Source of the DNA: Roseivivax sediminis
GTDB lineage: Bacteria; Pseudomonadota; Alphaproteobacteria; Rhodobacterales; Rhodobacteraceae
DNA length: 50,000 nt
Assembly: GCF_900112685.1 (NCBI RefSeq)
Contig: NZ_FOMS01000019.1
Span: forward strand, 1 to 50,000
Direction: 5' to 3'
Notes under the pieces: model-generated
Told to the model about the DNA's origin: nothing
What the model saw: the letters and a program-made list of their open reading frames with translations, nothing else
The model's database searches: none
Translations under genes and position numbers: made by a program
Shown: in pieces, positions 37,211 to 50,000 of the stretch
How positions within the stretch are numbered: the stretch's first letter is position 1
How the letters are laid out: every line of letters starts with the position of its first letter

Positions 37211-37291
37211 GCCGGTAACGCTGTCTACCACGGGCTATGTTGCAGAAAGCCTTTGGGGGATTCATCTCGTGAATCTGACGTTCCCCCTGAA

Positions 37292-37486
37292 TTAGGGCCG
37301 CGTTGATCCCGTAATTTTCGGTCGATTTGCAGTGTTGAACGACAGCACGGAGACAGCAAGTGTCTCGAGCGTTGTCGCGGCGATCGTGGTCAGAAACTCC
37401 GTTGGGGACAGGTATCGGAGCGCCGAATGCGGGCGCTCGGTGTTGTAGTGGTTGCGCCAGCGGCCGATCTCGTCCCGAGCATGGAG
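37292..37486 (-). mobile_element. IS3-family transposase C-terminal remnant
   Basis: The last 64 codons of a minus-strand reading frame. ARDEIGRWRNHYNTERPHSALRYLSPTEF is the end of an IS3 OrfB (YNxERPHSALxYLxPxEF). No other part of the transposase is present. It is joined in frame to an RTX fragment upstream, so it is the debris of an insertion or deletion. The bases 37236-37290 (TGTTGCAGAAAGCC) could be another IS end, unproven. Confidence 0.75.
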
Positions 37487-37843
37487 GTCTTGAAAGGCGA
37501 AGCGTTCCACGCTGCCGAAGGTGTTCACACCGCGGTAAGAATCGCCGTCTTTCGCGTAGGGGTGGTAGACCGTGACGTCGCCGTCCTCCCGCACGGTAAA
37601 GGCGTAGTCGTTGATGCTGCCGTCGAAGAAGGCCACGTCGTGGCCGCCGTCGCCGCCGCGGATCGTGTCGTTGCCTCCGGCCATGACGAAGACATCGTCG
37701 CCAGCGCCGCCGTCGACCGCGTTGTCACTTAGATCATCGACGAGGATGTCGTTGCCATCGCCCAGCTCGAAGGGTGCGCTTTCCGTGGTTTCGACGTTGT
37801 TGGTCCCGTCGAAGAAGACGAGGCGGCCTTCGCCTTCGTTCTC
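37487..37843 (-). pseudogene. RTX (calcium-binding repeat) protein fragment
   Basis: About 119 codons with RTX nonapeptide character: LGDGNDILVDDLSDNAVDGGAGDDVF, MAGGNDTIRGGDGGHD, then the usual post-repeat piece DGSINDYAFTVREDG and SVERFAFQD. The start and the secretion signal are missing. It reads directly into the IS3 tail and, on the other side, into antisense recombinase sequence, so it is not a functional gene although its frame stays open from 38356 to 37292. Confidence 0.65.
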
Positions 37844-37859
37844 TTCGGCGTCGAGCGCT

Positions 37860-38111
37860 GTGTCGCGGACCGGGGCCAGGAGGTGCTGTTCAAGCCGATC
37901 CGACGGCTGGAGGACCTGCTGACGGGCAGCGATCAGATGGTGGCGGCGAACGCGCTGCTGCGCGAGCTTCTGGGAGAGGTGTCTCTGTGGGGGGATCCGG
38001 AGGCGCGCGATTGTCTGCGTATCGAGATCCGGGGCGAGGTGTCCCGGATCTACCAACCTGTTGGAGAACAGCAAAAAAGCGCCCCGTGGGGCGCTGGTTT
38101 GTCTGCGATGC
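37860..38111 (+). pseudogene. 3' relic of a serine recombinase gene
   Basis: The plus-strand reading frame around 37883 gives FKPIRRLEDLLTGSDQMVAANALLRELLGEVSL and LRIEIRGEVSRIY. These resemble the C-terminal end of the intact recombinase at 45628-47343 (LEIRGKLLELLSFGDSKKA) and of other large serine recombinases. As in the intact gene, an antisense terminator and then a tRNA-fMet-like end (VVAGAGF, 38121 onward) follow. The catalytic N-terminus is absent. It is probably the edge of an older element at the same site. Confidence 0.55.
38073..38095 (-). terminator. Intrinsic terminator (minus strand) in the recombinase relic
   Basis: Read on the minus strand, stem AGCGCCC/GGGCGCT with a CACG loop is followed by TTTTTT. 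It lies 26 bases before the tRNA-like repeat, the same place as the terminator in the intact recombinase gene. Confidence 0.7.
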
Positions 38112-38120
38112 AGATTTCGG

Positions 38121-38141
38121 TGGTTGCGGGAGCTGGATTTG
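38121..38141. repeat. Left attachment-site repeat of the mobile element
   Basis: TGGTTGCGGGAGCTGGATTTG matches the tRNA-fMet 3' end at 47300-47320 (TGGTTGCGGGAGTAGGATTTG) in 19 of 21 positions, as a direct repeat. Sequence on the two sides differs. This is what an insertion at the tRNA 3' end by a site-specific recombinase leaves. Confidence 0.65.
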
Positions 38142-38210
38142 GTCTCTGGCGAACGGAAGTGGCCGTCACGTGGCGGTAGCCGGCAAAACCGGCCGCCGCC
38201 ATGTGGAGCC

Positions 38211-38702
38211 TCATTCGGCGGCGACTGCGTCATCTGCATTAGCCTTGCCGCCCTCGAACTTAAGTCGTAGTTCCTCGAACTTGGCGCGCTCCTTCTCCTC
38301 GCGCTCGGCGGCCCGGTCAGCCTTGCGCGCCTCTGCTTCCTCAGTCTTGGCCGCATCGTAGGCCTCTACGATTGCCTCTACCTCAGGCGGGCACAGCGGA
38401 TGCTCCATGATGGTTCGCCGGTCCTTCGCCGAGGCCGCGCAGGCCAGCGCCGAGATGACCTCGATGCGGGTCTGCTCATTCAGGCTCGGCAGCACCGCCG
38501 CGAAGTTCTGGCCGATGGCATTGGCGAAAGACAGGGCGCGGTTCAGCTCGTTGACCGCGGCCTTGGCTACGACACCGGATTGGATGGCTTGGATGGTACG
38601 ACGCGGGTCGGTCGAGACGGCACCGGCAGCAGGCTGCGTGCTGTTCGACGCCATGGCTCCGAGGAACTGACGGTGAAGGTCATTGTGGTTAATCTTGGAC
38701 AT
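38211..38702 (-). CDS. Hypothetical protein next to relaxase
   Basis: 163 residues, not recognised. N-terminal polar segment (KINHNDLHRQFLGAMAS), a middle helical part (AVNELNRALSFANAIGQNFAAVLPS and EVISALACAASAKDRRTIMEHPLCPPE) and a C-terminal, highly charged coiled coil from about residue 115 (EEAEARKADRAAEREEKERAKFEELR). Good AAAGGAG site upstream of the ATG at 38702. It lies downstream of the relaxase gene on the same strand, so it could be a mobilization accessory protein; this is inference. Confidence 0.65.
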   Translation of the reverse strand: MSKINHNDLHRQFLGAMASNSTQPAAGAVSTDPRRTIQAIQSGVVAKAAVNELNRALSFANAIGQNFAAVLPSLNEQTRIEVISALACAASAKDRRTIMEHPLCPPEVEAIVEAYDAAKTEEAEARKADRAAEREEKERAKFEELRLKFEGGKANADDAVAAE

Positions 38703-38861
38703 GGGGATCTCCTTTTTTTGTCCGGTTTAGGGTCAGCCGTCGGCGTGGTGCTGGGGGTATCAACCGCGGCCAAAAATTATGTGCTTTTGTTTCCATCGGC
38801 GCCGGAGCCAAAACGGACAACTTTCTCTCGGAAAAACTATAAGTCACGGACATCACTAGAT

Positions 38862-40247
38862 TCATTTTTCGTTAGATGCCTTTGCGTTTGGGTCGGCATC
38901 TCCCCGGCGATCTTCTTCCGCGCCCAAATGTCCACGTTTGCGCAACAGTCTCTCCAAGCCCACGACCTGCTTGACGACGGCCTTCCAGGTCTCGCCGGCC
39001 CGCTGACGAACGGCGGGCGGAAGGTGCTGCACGACGGCCATGAGCGTCTCGCGCGTGGTCTCGATCTCGGCGAACTCTTCGCGCAGCCGCTCCTCCGCGT
39101 CGCCTTGCGCACGAGCGCGCATTGCGGACCAGGCACGACCGAAAATGCCTTCTGCGCGTCGGCGACCGTTCTTCGACTTTGCCAAACGTCGGATCAGGGG
39201 CTTGGCAGCTTCGGATGCCTTGCCCGCCTCTGTCACGGCGAGGCGCGGCGTGCTTGAATCGTCCGTCAACTCGAAGAAGTCTTCCGCGAGCCCCTCCGCG
39301 GCGGCCAGAACGGAGTCGGCCTCGTCCGCCATATGCTGGGCCGCAGTTTCGCGCGCACCAACCGCAACCGAGCGCGTCTCTGCCGCGGCGGACTCGACGT
39401 CGAGGGCCTCCTTGGCTTCCCCGAGCGCCTTTTCCCGTGTGTCGAGGGCGGACGAACGGGCGTTCAGTCCAACGTGGTCAGCCCAGATGGAGGCCGCGAC
39501 CTCCTGCCGCCACTTCCAGGTGGGCTTGTGCTGAACCGGGTCCGGCCCCTTCATCCCTGCGGCTTTCGCCTGACGCGCAGCGAATGCCCGCGCTTCCCCG
39601 CGCAACAGTCCGGCTTGGGCGAACCACACGCCTGCGATGTCCTGCGCCAGCTCGTAGGATTGGATCGCCTCGTGCTTCGAAGGGATGAGCATCGGCCGTC
39701 CGTGCTGATCCTCGCCCCGCGGCATGATCACCGCGTGGATGTGATAGGTCTTCTCGTCGCGATCGGCACGGGCGTGCACGACGTCCTCACCGAAGTTGTA
39801 GGTCAGCCACCCGATGGCGAGATCCTCGAACTCCTTCTCGCGCCGGCGCTTTGCCATCTTGCCGCGCCAGGTCGCCTGATCACCCGCGGCTTCGAACCAT
39901 TCGGCATGGGCGGTGATGATCACTTCGCGCATCGGGCCGTGCTTCGACGGCCGCCAAGGATCCTTCGGTCCTTCGATCATGCGCTTTTCGATTTCACCGA
40001 CACGCTTCCGCTTCTTGAGCTTTGTCAGCTCGTTGGCGAAGCTCTCCATCCGCATTTCGTCGATCTCTGTCAGCGCTTCCCTGGCCCAGGTCTCGCTGCC
40101 GATCAGGAGCTTGTTGAGCCGGGTGCGGCTTCGATCGACCTCGCAGCGATCTTGATGTTTCCGCAGGCGATGCAGTTCGAAACGGGACAGTTGCTCGGGG
40201 CGCAAGCCCTCGAAACGCAGGACGATGGGGTGCTGGGAAGTCGACAC
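38862..40247 (-). CDS. MobV/Pre-like plasmid-type relaxase
   Basis: 461 residues. The catalytic metal motif of MobV relaxases is visible at residues 158-171: HARADRDEKTYHIH, with His158, Asp162, Glu165, His169 and His171 (HxDExxxHxH type). The N-terminus VLRFEGLRPEQLSRFELHR is of the Pre/Mob kind, and a long charged coiled-coil C-terminal half follows from about 275. It should nick oriT and lead the DNA strand in transfer. Start taken at a GTG at 40247 with GGAG 8 bases upstream; a longer frame to 40343 is unlikely. Confidence 0.75.
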   Translation of the reverse strand: MSTSQHPIVLRFEGLRPEQLSRFELHRLRKHQDRCEVDRSRTRLNKLLIGSETWAREALTEIDEMRMESFANELTKLKKRKRVGEIEKRMIEGPKDPWRPSKHGPMREVIITAHAEWFEAAGDQATWRGKMAKRRREKEFEDLAIGWLTYNFGEDVVHARADRDEKTYHIHAVIMPRGEDQHGRPMLIPSKHEAIQSYELAQDIAGVWFAQAGLLRGEARAFAARQAKAAGMKGPDPVQHKPTWKWRQEVAASIWADHVGLNARSSALDTREKALGEAKEALDVESAAAETRSVAVGARETAAQHMADEADSVLAAAEGLAEDFFELTDDSSTPRLAVTEAGKASEAAKPLIRRLAKSKNGRRRAEGIFGRAWSAMRARAQGDAEERLREEFAEIETTRETLMAVVQHLPPAVRQRAGETWKAVVKQVVGLERLLRKRGHLGAEEDRRGDADPNAKASNEK

Positions 40248-40631
40248 GTTGGATGCTCCGGATGAAAACCGGAGTAGACGTGGTGTTCTTTGTTCCCGCG
40301 CAAAAACGAGAGCGTGCACGGGGGTGCAGGGGAAAGTACTCACTAAGTAGACCGCACTCCCGCACCGTTGGTGCCTCCGTTCGGTCTACCCGCTCGCCCG
40401 GGGCGCTGCCCCGGAACCCCGCCCGCCGGGGGCGCCTGTGCGGCGGGCACTCCTGCGCGGAGGGCGGCAAGGTCATCGTTCCGCACTCCCCTTGCAACCC
40501 CTGCTCCCGGGGGAGCGTCGTTCCGCACTCCTCCCCCGAACCCCCGCCTGCTCGCAGGGGCCGTTCGCCACGCCCCTGCACCCCTCGGCGGCCACATCGG
40601 CCGATCAACGAACGCACACACAAGACTGCCT
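40248..40631. other. Non-coding region upstream of the relaxase; candidate oriT
   Basis: About 380 bases without a credible gene. A 14-base repeat TCGTTCCGCACTCC occurs at 40476-40489 and 40518-40531, and the core CCGCACTCC again at 40352-40360. Several GC-rich inverted repeats lie around 40400-40560 (for example GCTCCC/GGGAGC at 40503-40515). Its place directly upstream of the relaxase gene is where oriT usually lies. No known nick consensus was recognised. Confidence 0.35.
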
Positions 40632-40660
40632 TTGCTCTCCACATTTCGCCGGCATATGCT
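40632..40660 (+). promoter_or_regulatory. Possible promoter of the RT operon
   Basis: TTGCTC (40632-40637), 17-base spacer, TATGCT (40655-40660). Transcription would start near 40667, about 58 bases before the first RT gene. Weak -35 match. Confidence 0.3.
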
Positions 40661-40724
40661 CACCACAAACGATAAGTGATCACGAGGACTTCGAACCAAT
40701 GCGAACGGAAATGCGCCGAAATAA

Positions 40725-41999
40725 ATGCTAACCTCTGCCTTTTCTCCACAAGCCATCGCAAACTGTCTACGTGTCGGAGACTCCGGGCGATGGGGAGTCG
40801 ATCTGGAAACAGGCAAGGACGCTTTGATCAACAGAACGATTTCTCGCCTCGATACCGCCCCGCCCACACTAAACTTAGGCCACAAGAATACGCCCAACGG
40901 GAAGGCGAGGTACTACGCGCAAGATTTTGAAACTGACCTGATACTTCGGGCCACCTATCGTAGGCTGTCCAAGCAGTACTCCGTTCGGCCGCCAAATAGA
41001 GACCTGATGGTTCTTGGCCTCCAAGAAGCTCTGAGTGAGGCGTCACCTTTCATAGTTACAAGATGCGACGTCAAAGGGTTTTATGAGAACATAGCTGCGC
41101 GAAAACTGAACCAGCAAATCATATGCGATACTCGTACGGACCCAAGGATCCGGACAATCCTTCAACACCTGCAAGATACAGACGTAATCGCAGAAACATC
41201 TGTACCGAGAGGGCTTGCGCTCAGCACGCTGTTGTCCGAAATCTACCTAGCAGAGTTTGACAAAACCATTCGAAGGCTTCCCAACGTCCACAGGTATTTT
41301 CGATACGCAGATGACATCGTCGTTTTTTCACTTCCCGATAAGCCTACACTGGATCGCATCAGTGAAGAGCTCGCGGAAATTGGACTCGAGCTCAACGAAA
41401 AAACAGCAGAAGTCTACATTAAATCTATGAAATCATCCCAAACCGCAGACCCGCGCTTGGAATCATTCAACTTTTTGGGTTACGGCTTCAAGATTGATAA
41501 CGTGACGAAAAGCTATCAAACAAGAGCATTTGACGTTGCAATCGCCCAAACAAAACTAAAGAAGCGCCAGTCACGTATGCACCTCGCATTCAAGGACTTC
41601 TCCCAGAATGGAAACACCGATCTTCTTTTGGACCGGTTGCAATTCCTGACCTCTAATTATTCAACATACAAGACTCGGCACACTCGCGGCGCACGCAAGC
41701 AGAAGATAAGAGCGGGAATATACTACAACTACAAGCACTGCGGTCAGTTCCCCTCGAACAAGTCAGGAAGAACAAAAGAGCCATACAACGCCAAAGAGCT
41801 GGCCGCCCTAGATGCTCACATGAATGCATTATTGTTTGGACCGAACAGTACCTACTCCACTGCAATAAACGCACTACCCGCACCCATAAAAGAGCAATTC
41901 AGGAGGCTGAGCTACCTCCAGGGATACAAAAAACGAATCGACAAGCGCTTCACTAGAGCGCGAATGCGACAAATATGTCGGATTTGGATCAATGACTAA
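40725..41999 (+). CDS. drt3a: Reverse transcriptase, Drt3a-like (UG3 group)
   Basis: 424 residues. RT core motifs: Asp115 in RCDVKGFYENI (motif A), SVPRGLALSTLLSEIYLAEFD (motif B), the catalytic Tyr-Ala-Asp-Asp 194-197 in YFRYADDIVVFS, and FLGYGFKID. A C-terminal thumb/helical region follows to residue 424. No maturase, endonuclease or retron features. Its 8-base overlap (ATGACTAA) with a second, larger RT gene is the arrangement of the DRT3 antiphage systems (UG3 plus UG8). As I recall, the UG3 partner copies a short AC repeat in a non-coding RNA. Markedly AT-rich relative to the chromosome. Starts at the ATG at 40725; ribosome-binding site weak. Confidence 0.8.
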   Translation: MLTSAFSPQAIANCLRVGDSGRWGVDLETGKDALINRTISRLDTAPPTLNLGHKNTPNGKARYYAQDFETDLILRATYRRLSKQYSVRPPNRDLMVLGLQEALSEASPFIVTRCDVKGFYENIAARKLNQQIICDTRTDPRIRTILQHLQDTDVIAETSVPRGLALSTLLSEIYLAEFDKTIRRLPNVHRYFRYADDIVVFSLPDKPTLDRISEELAEIGLELNEKTAEVYIKSMKSSQTADPRLESFNFLGYGFKIDNVTKSYQTRAFDVAIAQTKLKKRQSRMHLAFKDFSQNGNTDLLLDRLQFLTSNYSTYKTRHTRGARKQKIRAGIYYNYKHCGQFPSNKSGRTKEPYNAKELAALDAHMNALLFGPNSTYSTAINALPAPIKEQFRRLSYLQGYKKRIDKRFTRARMRQICRIWIND

Positions 42000-43908
42000 T
42001 ATCGACTCAAAGATGAAAGAACTTCGCGCACTCTTAACCGAAACGTTGCCCTATGAACTGCCCTTTGGCTTTACGAACGAAAACTTCTTTCTTTCTGAGC
42101 TGAAAATCGGCGACCTGAGCGACGCTCAACGAAAAAAGTTGGATTTTGTGAGACGATCCCGGAAGGGCTATACAAAGCCCTTCTCATACAAGATTAACAG
42201 ATCGCATCGCGAAAAAAACACTATAAGCATCATTCACCCTACTATACAGCTTCGGATAGCCAAGCTGTATAGCGAGTTCGAACAGACAATATTGCAATCT
42301 TGCGCGAGGAGTCCGTTTTCGCTCAGATATCCGGCCGCTTCGCAACGCATATTCACTAAGGGAAGTTCAAAAGATGTCCGGAGAAGGTGGGAAGCTGACC
42401 TGCCAGACGATTTACCTGGGCAAAAAATATCGACCCCCTATGTACCCTCATACTTTGCGTACCAACGGTTCCTACTTCTCGATAGGTTTTTTTCTTCCAA
42501 CGAGCTGGTTCGCCTTGAGAGCCGGTTCTCACGGCTCCGAACCCTCGATGTATCGCGCTGCTTCTTCAATATATATACGCACTCAATTTCTTGGGCTGTT
42601 AAGGAGAAAGATTTTTCTAAAGATAATTCGAAGATGTACTCTTTTGAGCAACAGTTTGATGAGGTTATGCAGTACGCGAATTACAATGAAACCGCGGGAC
42701 TCTTGGTTGGACCTGAGGCATCAAGAATTTTCGCCGAGATTATCTTGCAGCGCATTGATCTGGAAGTTGCGGCCTCGGCCGAACAAACGGGGCTAAGAGA
42801 AGGTCGAGACTATACGGTACGAAGATATGTAGACGACTTCCATATCTTTGCAGACGAAGAAGGTACGCTCGATAAAATTGAGCGCTTTCTTTCCGACAGC
42901 CTCGAAGAGTATAAAATGTTTCTGAACTTGGACAAAGCTAGAGACTTTGAACGGCCTTTCGTAACTTCCGTTTCTAGAGTTAAATTCGAAGTACATGGAG
43001 TCGCAAGGCGAATTGAGGAATGCCTAATTAAACGACCTCAGGCAGATGATGAACCAAGGAAGCAAACTAAGAAAGCAATTAGGTCCTCCTTGGACGCGCT
43101 TCGGCACATTGGTGGCTCCGAAAGAGCGGCAATGGTAAGCTCCACCTCCGAAATCTATGGAGCGCTCCATTCGTCGATTGCAAAAATGTCAGAATTCGCC
43201 AAAGAAGACCTTAGCGAAGACGAATGGATCGATCTTTCCGAGCGCGCGAAATTTTTGGTTCGCATGCTTTATTACCTACTCTCCTTGGACTTTCGCGTTC
43301 CTCCACTAATTCGCTCGGCGGAAATCCTTAGAAAGCTTAGCGAACTTCTAACCAGAGCTCCCGAAGCCATGTCGCACGACATCAGGTCGTATGTCATTTT
43401 TGAGACTGATCAGTTGATTTCATCTAATTACGACTCGCACGGATCGAACTTGCCTCTTGAAATTGCGAACGCTTTCCTCATAGGGCTTCTCATTGACCCT
43501 GGGCTTTTTGTTTCGCAAGCGGGCGCGAAGTTAGTTCTGTCAGACATCCTTGAAGAAAAAAAGACATGCTATTTCTCTATGTTATGTCTGCTTCATGCAC
43601 ACGGGAGCGCAGGAAGCGTAGAGGCTGGCGAGTTCGCGATCGCAATTCGAAATCGCGTCCTATCCGATGAATTTGACATTCATAAAAGCTGTGAAGATCA
43701 CCTTATTTTCTGTGACTTCGTTTCCTGTCCTTACGTGGATTTTGACCTCAGATGGACGACATTTAATGATGTTACGGGAGGAGTTGAGATAGGTAAGGAA
43801 GAGTTTGACAAAATCTGTCCCCACCTTAGATTTGTGAATTGGCAGGAGACCGGAATTCAGTTCGCGATCTTGCAGAAACGCTTGCCTCCAGTATACTTTT
43901 CAAGTTAG
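41992..43908 (+). CDS. drt3b: Reverse transcriptase, Drt3b-like (UG8 group)
   Basis: 638 residues. A long N-terminal region (about 1-150) precedes the RT core. Asp186 in TLDVSRCFFNIYTHSISW is motif A, GLLVGPEASRIFAEIILQRID near 236-256 is motif B, and Tyr-Val-Asp-Asp 279-282 in RRYVDDFHIF is the active site. All three catalytic Asp positions are present. The C-terminal 300 residues are mostly helical with no recognised domain. Length and pairing with the upstream RT match the second subunit of DRT3. Low GC, like its partner. The stop at 43908 is followed 12 bases later by the candidate RNA. Confidence 0.8.
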   Translation: MTNIDSKMKELRALLTETLPYELPFGFTNENFFLSELKIGDLSDAQRKKLDFVRRSRKGYTKPFSYKINRSHREKNTISIIHPTIQLRIAKLYSEFEQTILQSCARSPFSLRYPAASQRIFTKGSSKDVRRRWEADLPDDLPGQKISTPYVPSYFAYQRFLLLDRFFSSNELVRLESRFSRLRTLDVSRCFFNIYTHSISWAVKEKDFSKDNSKMYSFEQQFDEVMQYANYNETAGLLVGPEASRIFAEIILQRIDLEVAASAEQTGLREGRDYTVRRYVDDFHIFADEEGTLDKIERFLSDSLEEYKMFLNLDKARDFERPFVTSVSRVKFEVHGVARRIEECLIKRPQADDEPRKQTKKAIRSSLDALRHIGGSERAAMVSSTSEIYGALHSSIAKMSEFAKEDLSEDEWIDLSERAKFLVRMLYYLLSLDFRVPPLIRSAEILRKLSELLTRAPEAMSHDIRSYVIFETDQLISSNYDSHGSNLPLEIANAFLIGLLIDPGLFVSQAGAKLVLSDILEEKKTCYFSMLCLLHAHGSAGSVEAGEFAIAIRNRVLSDEFDIHKSCEDHLIFCDFVSCPYVDFDLRWTTFNDVTGGVEIGKEEFDKICPHLRFVNWQETGIQFAILQKRLPPVYFSS

Positions 43909-43919
43909 TGAGATATTGA

Positions 43920-44055
43920 CGGTGTGGTTCCTGCGCTAGATCGCTGAAGGTGCTTTTGCATTGGATGCTTCCATCTTGGCCAGGCCTTTCTTTTGGCTTG
44001 ACCAGTTGGTCTTACACACATGAGCGTGTTCCACATCGTCGCAACTCCACATTTT
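43920..44055 (+). ncRNA. Candidate DRT3-associated non-coding RNA
   Basis: This non-coding segment directly follows drt3b. A closing stem pairs TGTGG (43923-43927) with CCACA (44047-44051) and TGCG (43932-43935) with CGCA (44040-44043). Inside are a small hairpin TGC-TTTT-GCA (43951-43960) and a 10-bp stem with one mismatch and one wobble, TGGCCAGGCC with GGCTTGACCA (43977-44004). Then comes ACACACA at 44014-44020, which may pair weakly with GTGT at 44026. A short AC repeat in a structured RNA is what a poly(GT)-making RT would use as template. No other homology evidence. Confidence 0.5.
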
Positions 44056-44096
44056 GGCACGAGCAAGTAGTCGCGCACTGTCGCGTCAAGAATCGT

Positions 44097-44152
44097 CCAG
44101 ACCTCCGAACGGCTGCGCGCTCAATTTGACGCGCAGCCGTTCGGAGGTCTGG
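44097..44152. repeat. Perfect 23-bp inverted repeat
   Basis: Arms 44097-44119 and 44130-44152 are exactly complementary (starting CCAGACCTCCGAACGG), and inside TCAA/TTGA extend the stem after one bulged C. There is no T run. It could be the 3' border of the RT-associated RNA, a transcription barrier or the scar of another element. Confidence 0.85.
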
Positions 44153-44204
44153 AGCAAGCAGGCTGTCCAGCTGGCGTCGTTGTCCCACGCCACAGGAGGC
44201 CTTC

Positions 44205-44702
44205 ATGTATCACCACCCCCAACCCTTCACGCCGGCCGGCAATAGCGTGCATCTGCAGCGCGGCGATGTCGTGCTGTTCCACTTTCCTCTAGCCGAGGAG
44301 GATGACGAGCCAGGTGCGCCGAAGCGCCGTCCCTGCCTCGTGCTCGACACGATGACCAAGGGCGACGAGCGCTTCGTGGAGATCGCCTACGGCACGTCGG
44401 CGGACACGCGCGCGAACCGCGGCTACGAAGTCATCGTCAAGCAGTGCGCCGCGCGGGAGACAGCCGGGCTGTCGAAGCCCACGCGGTTCGTCTGCGCACG
44501 GCGCATCATCGTGCACGTGAACCACAGCGGCTTCCACGGACGCTCCAAGAGCCCGCACATCATCGGCCGCCTCGATGAAGCTCTGCTGGACCGGATGAAC
44601 GCCGTCCGGGCACGGATCCAGGCCGAGGCCGACATTGCCGCCTACTACTACGAAGAACAGCGGAGGGAAGAGCAGGCGCGCGAAGACCGCGGTTTCCAAT
44701 AG
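44205..44702 (+). CDS. PemK/MazF-like toxin-family protein
   Basis: 165 residues. HLQRGDVVLFHFPLAEED, the KRRPCLVLDT strand and the VEIAYGTS segment are the N-terminal beta-barrel of PemK/MazF-type ribonucleases. The C-terminal 50 residues are a charged helix (RIQAEADIAAYYYEEQRREE) not usual for MazF. No antitoxin with a recognisable DNA-binding domain is adjacent. The gene returns to high GC, unlike the RT operon. It could be a toxin, or a domesticated relative with another role. Starts at the ATG at 44205. Confidence 0.65.
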   Translation: MYHHPQPFTPAGNSVHLQRGDVVLFHFPLAEEDDEPGAPKRRPCLVLDTMTKGDERFVEIAYGTSADTRANRGYEVIVKQCAARETAGLSKPTRFVCARRIIVHVNHSGFHGRSKSPHIIGRLDEALLDRMNAVRARIQAEADIAAYYYEEQRREEQAREDRGFQ

Positions 44703-44757
44703 GGAACCGCGCTCTCGCCGCTGCTCCTCCCCTCTCAATCAACACAAGGAAAGACCA

Positions 44758-45198
44758 ATGGATATGCCATTCAAATCCGCCTCCGAGATCACCGCAATGG
44801 CCGCTTCGTGCTTCCCGCTGGCGCGGGCCGCCGCCACGGGGATCGACCAGGACGTGCTCGACCTCGTCGCGCCCAAGCCCAAGCAGGAAGCCAAGAAGCT
44901 GGCCGCGCTGCTGCGGGCCGGCAACATCTTCGACAAGGGCATCCTGGCGATGCTCCACGAGCTCGTCGGCGTCCTCGACGCCGAGATCGCCGAGGGCACC
45001 TACGTCGAGACCCGCTACGACCACAGCCCGGAGAACGTTTCCGACTACAAGACCTGGGGCCAGGAACGCCTCACACCGGAGGCTGATCGCCTGTCGAACG
45101 CCCTCGCGGTGCTGATCGAGCTCTACGCCACCCTTTCGGCGGTGCACGACATCCTGCGCGCCGAGAAGGCCCTGGAGGGGCTGCGCACCGCAGCCTGA
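44758..45198 (+). CDS. Hypothetical protein (possible partner of the PemK-like protein)
   Basis: 146 residues, not recognised. Mostly helical: ITAMAASCFPLARAAATG, KQEAKKLAALLRAGNIFDKGILAMLHELVGVL and ALAVLIELYATLSAVHDILRAEKALEGL, with an acidic patch AEIAEGTYVETRYDHSPENVSDY. Starts at the ATG at 44758, with AAGGAAAG upstream and 55 bases after the toxin-like gene on the same strand. It could act as its antitoxin, but shows no DNA-binding motif. Confidence 0.6.
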   Translation: MDMPFKSASEITAMAASCFPLARAAATGIDQDVLDLVAPKPKQEAKKLAALLRAGNIFDKGILAMLHELVGVLDAEIAEGTYVETRYDHSPENVSDYKTWGQERLTPEADRLSNALAVLIELYATLSAVHDILRAEKALEGLRTAA

Positions 45199-45204
45199 TG
45201 AGAC

Positions 45205-45226
45205 ACGCGGGCTGGAACGCCCGCGT
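45205..45226. repeat. Hairpin after the hypothetical gene
   Basis: 8-bp perfect stem ACGCGGGC/GCCCGCGT with a 6-base loop, 6 bases after the stop at 45198. No T run; a weak terminator or mRNA end stabiliser. Confidence 0.45.
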
Positions 45227-45284
45227 CAGGGCGTGCCGACGAACCTTCTGCTGCTACCAGATGTCGGCGCGCCCGCCAACGAGA

Positions 45285-45313
45285 AGCCCGTGCAGGTCCT
45301 GCCTGCACGGGCT
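45285..45313. repeat. 12-bp hairpin
   Basis: AGCCCGTGCAGG/CCTGCACGGGCT, perfect 12-bp stem with a 5-base loop. No T run. It may be a terminator or a protein-binding dyad upstream of the small gene at 45387. Confidence 0.5.
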
Positions 45314-45386
45314 CGTCAATCACACCCGAGGGCTCGGCTCTCGCCAGTCTGTCGGTTTTCGGTGTCCACAGCCGAAGGAGAAGCGC

Positions 45387-45578
45387 ATGGCCCTCGCGAA
45401 CCTGATTGACCTCATCGCCGAAGTTGCCGCTAAGCGGACTGCCCGGGAGGGCAACACGAAGGCGGACACTCCGGACGCGGTAGTCGCGTTGTGCCGTTGG
45501 ATTCGGGCCAATTTATGGAACACCCGTCATATTTTCATCCGGATTTCAGTGTTTGGAGTAAGACTGGACAGCGCGTGA
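45387..45578 (+). CDS. Small hypothetical protein
   Basis: 63 residues. Starts MALANLIDLIAEVAAKRTAREGN after a very good GAAGGAG site 7 bases upstream. The second half (RANLWNTRHIFIRISVFGVRL) looks less protein-like, so the gene may be truncated. No family recognised. It ends 49 bases before the recombinase gene. Confidence 0.4.
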   Translation: MALANLIDLIAEVAAKRTAREGNTKADTPDAVVALCRWIRANLWNTRHIFIRISVFGVRLDSA

Positions 45579-45627
45579 CGAATGCGTCAGCTTCTGTCGC
45601 CCGGCCGCTCCCTGTTGAAGGTTTCGA

Positions 45628-47376
<1,749 letters not shown>

Positions 47377-47480
47377 CCAATTGGGCTTTGTCGCCCGTGC
47401 TCCGCGCCTGTTTTTGATTGGTGCGGAGGGTGTTTGGTGTCATCGTATTCGAGAGATACGTATTGGCGTGTCTTGCTAGG

Positions 47481-47595
47481 TTTGGCGGCGACCTACTCTC
47501 CCACGTCTTGAGACGCAGTACCATTGGCGCGACGGCACTTAACGGCCGGGTTCGGAATGGAGCCGGGTGTTTTGCTCGTGCTATGACCACCAAAC
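47481..47595 (-). rRNA. 5S ribosomal RNA
   Basis: About 115 bases. The minus strand has TTTGGTGGTCATAGC at the 5' end, CCCGGCTCCATTCCGAACCC in loop B/C and GGGAGAGTAGGTCGCCGCCAAA at the 3' end, and the ends pair. Ends are placed to within a few bases. Confidence 0.95.
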
Positions 47596-47639
47596 CGAGA
47601 AAGACACGGCGCGCATCCGCGCGCCGTGTCTTTCTCGGT
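47594..47639. repeat. 21-bp inverted repeat in the 23S-5S spacer
   Basis: Arms 47594-47614 and 47619-47639, perfectly complementary, loop ATCC (plus strand), directly before the 5S start. Probably a processing signal (double-stranded RNA cleavage site) for release of 5S. Confidence 0.8.
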
Positions 47640-47804
47640 GGCCGGGAGCGTTTTTGCGAGGCAAAAGCGCGTGGCCACACCGCAGACATGCCGGGTGCGA
47701 ATACGCTCAATCAACATGCGCTTATGGCGCGTCGTTGTCCTGATCTTGTTCACAAGGGGTATGCTTTTCGACCAGAGGACAGGGATGCCTGTCTGTTTCT
47801 GGAT

Positions 47805-50000
<2,196 letters not shown>

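Follow-up and report, generated by a model that had tools for sequence, protein, structure and literature searches.

A DRT3 locus of Roseivivax sediminis from a side branch with changes in both reverse transcriptase active sites

In DRT3 systems the reverse transcriptase (RT) Drt3b makes a defined DNA repeat from an amino-acid template, and what is known of this rests on E. coli systems and on point mutants. What happens when one contact to that template is naturally missing? The question is raised by a pair of RT genes, drt3a and drt3b, at 40725-43908 of the window, by which we mean the whole stretch of 50,000 nucleotides analysed here (Roseivivax sediminis, contig NZ_FOMS01000019.1, positions 1 to 50,000, assembly GCF_900112685.1). 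The answer that we consider likely is a three-part DRT3 (Drt3a, Drt3b and a non-coding RNA, ncRNA) belonging to a clade with changes at the position of E. coli Drt3b R71 and in the Drt3a YxDD motif, whose product is unchanged and whose likeliest guard is the host nuclease AddAB. Transcription, product and defence of the window system are what we infer from the analysis below. A natural clade that lacks one template contact and is altered in the catalytic motif of the partner enzyme provides a comparison of sequence-setting with rate-setting residues. In addition, a host without RecC offers a test of whether control by a double-stranded-DNA nuclease holds generally or is peculiar to E. coli.

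Two reverse transcriptases and a predicted downstream RNA

A preliminary description of this DNA had reported two overlapping open reading frames (ORFs) with an 8-base overlap and intact catalytic aspartates, and had assigned them to DRT3 (UG3 plus UG8). The coordinates proved exact, and the aspartates are found in the YADD motif of Drt3a (residues 194-197) and the YVDD motif of Drt3b (residues 279-282). When the profile search that it proposed was carried out, both proteins passed the curated NCBIfam cut-offs: Drt3a scored 313.3 bits against NF041747 (cut-off 200, E 3.2e-93) and Drt3b 516.8 bits against NF041748 (cut-off 350, E 9.8e-155), E-values that exclude a chance match. PADLOC concurs (3.8e-93 for Drt3a, 3.7e-147 for Drt3b), and gene order and overlap fit DRT3; according to PMC8934634, UG3 adjoins a UG8 in 97% of cases. 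Related PDB entries are 9z6y/9z6z, with chains of both Drt3a and Drt3b, and 26cz, with a Drt3b (9z6y_A, 2.3e-29 for Drt3a; 9z6y_H, 1.7e-73 for Drt3b). Among the top 16 Foldseek matches were class 1 UG relatives (DRT6, UG15/DRT4, AbiK; TM 0.35-0.58 to the query), and a DRT3 entry was absent from the 50 matches listed (structure library to April 2026).

The account in terms of two RTs was correct as to both enzymes, but it overlooked a third part, a predicted ncRNA located just 3' of drt3b. E. coli DRT3 requires an ncRNA encoded at this place, in which 5'-ACACAC-3' is the template of Drt3a (PMC13174585). The parts of the system in the window are the following.

40725..41999, plus strand: drt3a, UG3-type RT of 424 amino acids (NF041747, PADLOC, 9z6y_A)
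41992..43908, plus strand: drt3b, UG8-type RT of 638 amino acids (NF041748, PADLOC, 9z6y_H)
about 43909..44087, plus strand: predicted ncRNA, ends approximate (identity to Phaeobacter, motif and helix tests)
43917..43927, plus strand: 5' arm of the helix closing the template region (predicted fold)
44014..44020, plus strand: ACACACA template, unpaired in the predicted fold (motif, fold)
44031..44041, plus strand: 3' arm of the helix closing the template region (predicted fold)

In the predicted fold the unpaired template is directly followed by the 3' arm of the helix, while the 5' arm lies at the start of the RNA. Compared with the related locus on a Phaeobacter plasmid, the block 43909-44087 is 85.5% identical, rising to 91% around the template (44006-44062); the next stretch (44088-44200) shows only 35% identity and the stretch upstream of drt3a 57%. 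The coding DNA of the two loci is 79-81% identical, so that the ncRNA block is conserved to a similar degree.

We then surveyed DRT3 loci for the template. From 139 sources examined, 104 loci were kept (Drt3b score at least 380 and reaching the end of the profile). The scan of genome contigs kept the best 80 of 455 relatives, which means that the sample leans towards the window and rarer clades may be missed; a first scan of viral contigs gave zero relatives. ACACAC was found within 300 nt downstream of Drt3b in 96 of the 104 loci with full-length Drt3b, from several phyla, which widens the known occurrence of the template. In the controls, the motif occurred upstream in 7 of 93 loci and on the reverse strand in 2 of 104, and 100 dinucleotide shuffles gave a mean of 6.03 and a maximum of 12 of the 104 loci. 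Removal of 90%-identical Drt3b rows left it downstream in 86 of 93. In the positive control L114, whose Drt3b equals that of PDB 26cz save for two visible differences, the template was found at +128. Among the eight loci without ACACAC within 300 nt, L047 carries it at +366, a shorter CACAC is present at roughly the usual position in L062, L067, L075 and L091, and L092 has weak candidates only. The remaining two, L070 and L103 from Snodgrassella, have no CACAC-type template in the 600 nt before the operon or the 800 nt after it, bar a CACAC at +624 in L103. Their Drt3b retain E22, R71, R241 and the tyrosine, and their ncRNA is either located elsewhere or carries a differing template.

Two further candidates were rejected. 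A second CACACAC upstream of drt3a (about 40615-40622) was considered as a template; the Phaeobacter locus is gapped there, and the low upstream count given above also speaks against it. The idea that RNA and protein templates co-vary across DRT3 to give other repeats was dropped too, E/D22 and R241 being nearly fixed and ACACAC being present nearly everywhere.

For each locus the helix was scored as the best pairing of the 170 nt preceding the template with the 34 nt following it, and the locus's own partner was compared with all swapped partners. The sample was 80 loci, with 14 named near-duplicates and the loci lacking a 6-base repeat or enough flank excluded. The mean for own partners was 29.96, whereas 1000 permutations averaged 20.93 and never exceeded 22.46; the own partner beat every swap in 28 of the 80 loci and was within the top 5% in 45. 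A covariance model of the clade ncRNAs could not be built, as the MAFFT alignment was too divergent. Judged by covariation, a helix flanking the template is real across DRT3. Taken together, the profile, motif and helix results indicate that by its sequence the locus is a genuine DRT3, with an antiphage activity and a product that we infer. The overall DRT3 assignment of the preliminary description is supported; the ncRNA template and the distinct clade had escaped it.

A clade with altered active sites

In E. coli Drt3b, E22 hydrogen-bonds dA, R71 stacks on dA and R241 handles dC (PMC13174585). We located the equivalent codons of the window genes by alignment.

41307..41309, plus strand: Drt3a codon A195, the x of YxDD (alignment)
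42055..42057, plus strand: Drt3b codon E22, equivalent to E. coli E22, dA gate (alignments; role from PMC13174585)
42217..42219, plus strand: Drt3b codon N76, at the position of E. coli R71 (alignments; role from PMC13174585)
42724..42726, plus strand: Drt3b codon R245, equivalent to E. coli R241, dC switch (alignments; role from PMC13174585)
43894..43896, plus strand: Drt3b codon Y635, putative priming tyrosine corresponding to E. coli Y666, with 3 residues after it (role from PMC13174585)

The window thus lacks E. coli-like active sites, having N76 for R71 in Drt3b and A195 for V in Drt3a, two positions that the family models do not use as criteria. Trees were built for both proteins, with 101 rows and a quick method for Drt3b (L027, L132 and L097 excluded) and with 97 rows and a careful method for Drt3a. 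In the former the window groups with L031, L023 and L032, inside a set of 17 alpha- and betaproteobacterial rows with an SH-aLRT support of 99. The independent Drt3a tree recovers the same set as 16 rows with support of 100/100; L035, which has a Drt3a fragment only, is not among them. At 90% and 70% identity the clade comprises 14 and 12 non-redundant rows respectively. The annotation of L027 (E. coli plasmid CP083496.1) has two hypothetical proteins in place of Drt3b, which also reads as two ORFs and looks split by a frameshift.

The position of E. coli R71 is occupied by T (12), N (4) or L (1) in the clade, that is by a residue other than R in 17 of 17 rows, whereas outside the clade it is R in all 85 rows with a residue there. 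By alignment, the clade rows have A (10), S (5) or, in L044 alone, V (1) at the x of the Drt3a YxDD motif; elsewhere each of the 81 rows has V there. One pattern count had pointed to a few non-V motifs outside the clade and another count to two (L053, L093), and these were discarded, all 81 being V once aligned. The C-terminal end of Drt3b differs as well: in 16 of the 17 clade rows the final tyrosine is followed by 2-4 residues, versus 0-1 in 82 of 87 others. Retained in the clade are E22 (E in 16, D in 1) and, in all 17 rows, both R241 and the ACACAC template. The C-terminal tyrosine is aligned in 16 clade rows, and the protein of L044 ends in its tyrosine.

A basic residue is found two or three places before the R71 position in 16 of 17 clade rows, versus 24 of 85 others; the window residue is R73. 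According to an AlphaFold2 model of the window Drt3b (mean pLDDT 81.9, pTM 0.85), strands 64-69 and 75-80 are joined by a turn that holds residue 73, and N76 starts the second of these strands.

These alignments and trees indicate that the window locus belongs to a side branch of DRT3, both enzymes of which have active-site changes not found in the other sampled DRT3s. Since each change maps to a single branch, the contrast is striking but may reflect one event per protein. DRT3 itself is already known, and the window locus is a true member of it; what appears to be new is a clade with linked changes in both active sites that keeps the RNA template and, in the window, lives in a host without the published guard. 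A description of this clade was not found in an open-licence literature search or in the parts of PMC13174585 consulted, whose Figure S5D may show the conservation of R71.

Mechanism, host nuclease and competing explanations

By analogy with the E. coli system of PMC13174585, Drt3a would repeatedly copy the ACACACA of the ncRNA into poly(dTdG). Drt3b would presumably be primed by its own C-terminal tyrosine, Y635, and would make poly(dCdA) without a nucleic-acid template, E22 admitting dA and R245 admitting dC. The poly(dTdG) and poly(dCdA) strands would anneal, and a host nuclease would keep the duplex down. Once a phage disables the clearing nuclease, the duplex would accumulate and growth would halt.

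In the E. coli model the guarding nuclease is RecBCD, and lambda Gam acts as the trigger (PMC13174585). The host genome of the window (estimated as 99.96% complete) contains a full AddA, at 1195.5 bits against a cut-off of 860.75. A profile search of the same genome gave zero matches to RecC and nothing above the cut-off for RecB (best 127 bits against 696), RecD and AddB not having been searched. As AddA is present and RecC absent, a RecBCD guard cannot work here as it does in E. coli. This leaves AddAB, the likeliest candidate, or some other enzyme as the guard.

With R71 lost and the rest kept, the Drt3b of the clade needs either another hold on dA or a different product. We read the product as unchanged, given that the clade retains the RNA template, E22 and R241; in this reading the basic residue two or three places earlier may take over the role of R71. 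Several points weigh against the preferred explanation as a whole. In E. coli the R71A mutant had an activity too low for (CA) repeats to be detected in cells, and R71 is said to contribute to nucleotide preference (PMC13174585), so that its loss could mean a weaker or a different Drt3b. The relocated arginine is an idea drawn from sequence. The confidence of the predicted model is low at residues 631-638, the site of the tyrosine. As for the RNA, its 85.5% identity to Phaeobacter barely exceeds that of the coding DNA, and it is no more stable in the window than its shuffles (z -0.51). The window helix taken singly is not significant, 8.9% of swapped arms equalling its own score; 16 of the 80 loci, including the E. 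coli control L114, do no better than more than 20% of the swaps; and in an earlier, noisy test with looser pairing (duplexfold) the own arm was best of 26 in 20 of 80 loci.

A competing possibility is that the clade has a changed nucleotide output, with for instance weaker dA selection, slips or runs of C in Drt3b, a matching adjustment to A or S in Drt3a, and a duplex that is not strictly (TG)/(CA). The residue missing from all 17 rows is indeed the one that stacks on dA (PMC13174585), and its loss co-occurs with the A or S in the catalytic motif of Drt3a. We nevertheless consider a changed output unlikely, for with E22 (D in one row), R241 and ACACAC kept throughout, the RNA partner would still need a complementary (CA) strand. 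A bolder and less likely reading is that the clade has found a second natural solution to protein-templated DNA synthesis, in which the dA-stacking arginine shifted within its hairpin by two or three places towards the N-terminus (R73) and Drt3a changed from V to A or S on the matching branch. Both polymerases would then have been retuned together, possibly with another rate or a product that is not strictly (CA), under the control of AddAB and not RecBCD in such hosts. It is also possible, although we do not favour it, that the differences are neutral marks of a lineage that functions as E. coli DRT3 does except for the host nuclease. Each change sits on one branch and possibly represents a single event carried by descent. 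Yet outside the clade both positions, which lie in or beside the active sites, are invariant (R in all 85 rows, V in all 81), and the excess of basic residues before the R71 position fits poorly with neutral marks.

Two other explanations were considered. A relative on a Yoonia maritima plasmid is visibly decayed, and the window operon might likewise be a decaying relic without function. This is very improbable, as both frames are open, the catalytic motifs, template and tyrosine are intact, and a cassette about 99% identical exists in Wenxinia saemankumensis (L031, below). Protein identity to Phaeobacter (85% for Drt3b, 83% for Drt3a) moreover exceeds the identity of the DNA, as expected under purifying selection. 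The preliminary description had named a placement of either RT with retrons, group II introns or another UG group as the result that would contradict it. Both RTs do match such models weakly, as RTs do, but those profiles score far lower: the runner-up NCBIfam models are the group II intron maturase for Drt3a (70.6 bits against 313.3) and Drt4 for Drt3b (108.6 against 516.8). An identity of this kind is ruled out by the curated profile scores and is scarcely conceivable. It follows from this weighing that a DRT3 with an unchanged product remains the explanation that we consider likely.

Mobile element and named relatives

The preliminary description had placed a low-GC operon, as transferred cargo, on an element with a relaxase and a recombinase in a GC-rich genome. 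The contrast in base composition holds, with 46-47% against 60-73% GC. The 1-kb blocks of 41001-44000 have GC fractions of 0.470, 0.455 and 0.468, and outside the dip the values are 0.607-0.735 over 1-41000 and 0.602-0.661 over 44001-48000; the final 2 kb of the window is rRNA (0.577 and 0.541). Transferred cargo fits this low GC and the occurrence of a near-identical cassette at a different tRNA gene in another genome. Regarding the element itself, the serine recombinase and a Pfam Mob_Pre match stand, whereas MobV falls below its NCBIfam cut-off and the left edge was not located. The features around the operon are listed here.

38862..40343, minus strand: Mob_Pre/MobV-like relaxase (Pfam 31.2 bits, cut-off 25.5; NCBIfam MobV 43.7, cut-off 100)
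44096..44153, no strand assigned: perfect inverted repeat of 24 bp around a 10-nt loop, immediately 3' of the ncRNA, matched in L031 and not kept in Phaeobacter
44205..44702, plus strand: PemK/MazF-like ORF (Pfam PemK_toxin 22.4 bits, under the cut-off of 23.1; 97.6% in L031)
44635..45198, plus strand: ORF of unknown function, common to Wenxinia, true start probably nearer 44760
45628..47343, plus strand: large serine recombinase (Pfam Resolvase, Recombinase and zinc ribbon, all above cut-off)
47300..47376, minus strand: tRNA-Met (cat) at the end of the rRNA operon, putative integration site

The inverted repeat could be a terminator or a recombination relic. Among the loci searched, the PemK-like ORF occurs besides the window only in L031; a PF02697 search in the host genome was without result. 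The recombinase gene runs into the tRNA-Met, which had been overlooked. Synteny with four same-genus genomes stops at 37212-37215, which puts the element somewhere in 37215-47300, and no tRNA was found at this left break in the flanks of the four genomes. The sole candidate attachment repeat pairs 38121-38141 with 47300-47320 (90% over 21 bases, E 0.10). For the other two tRNA-Met/5S copies of the genome, at base 1 of contigs C9 and C27, the first base corresponds to window 47299, in line with sequences that diverge at the 3' end of the tRNA. The type of AddA, and TRAP genes with 79% identity to those of Sulfitobacter plasmids, point to an alphaproteobacterial host, probably of the Rhodobacterales. 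Drt3b above cut-off was found in 2 of 248 genomes of the host's family, the window genome included, and in 5 of 385 of the class.

The closest of the named relatives is the locus of Wenxinia saemankumensis (NZ_FQYO01000002.1, L031), which is about 99% identical over 40401-45200 (mean of 24 200-nt blocks), an identity that takes in the downstream ORFs and the inverted repeat. It differs in lying at a tRNA-Ser and in its diverged relaxase; the 11.9 kb examined there revealed no serine recombinase. A nearly identical cassette in differing surroundings suggests exchange of the cassette between elements. The locus of Phaeobacter inhibens plasmid NZ_CP081244.1 (L023) is of the same clade, with a Drt3b that has N at the R71 position, and conserves the ncRNA and template of the window; its plasmid is conjugative, and the locus lacks four features of the window, namely the relaxase, the recombinase, the inverted repeat and the PemK-like ORF. 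The Yoonia maritima plasmid locus (L033) is a decayed member of the clade. It has an early in-frame stop in Drt3b, whose similarity ends at residue 481, and N at the R71 position, and of its Drt3a the C-terminal end alone was detected.

Much more distant are the E. coli systems. The DRT3 of 9z6y/9z6z, structures that come from Deng et al. 2026 according to the review PMC13314766, has a Drt3a and a Drt3b homologous to those of the window over nearly their full length. From the E. coli DRT3 of PDB 26cz and L114 (PMC13174585), whose Drt3b is about 29% identical, the window system differs in N76 for R71, in the Drt3a motif YADD for YVDD, in the three residues after the tyrosine and in a host without RecC. 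With it the window shares the order of the RTs, the downstream ACACAC ncRNA, the equivalents of E22 and R241, the C-terminal tyrosine and the YVDD of Drt3b.

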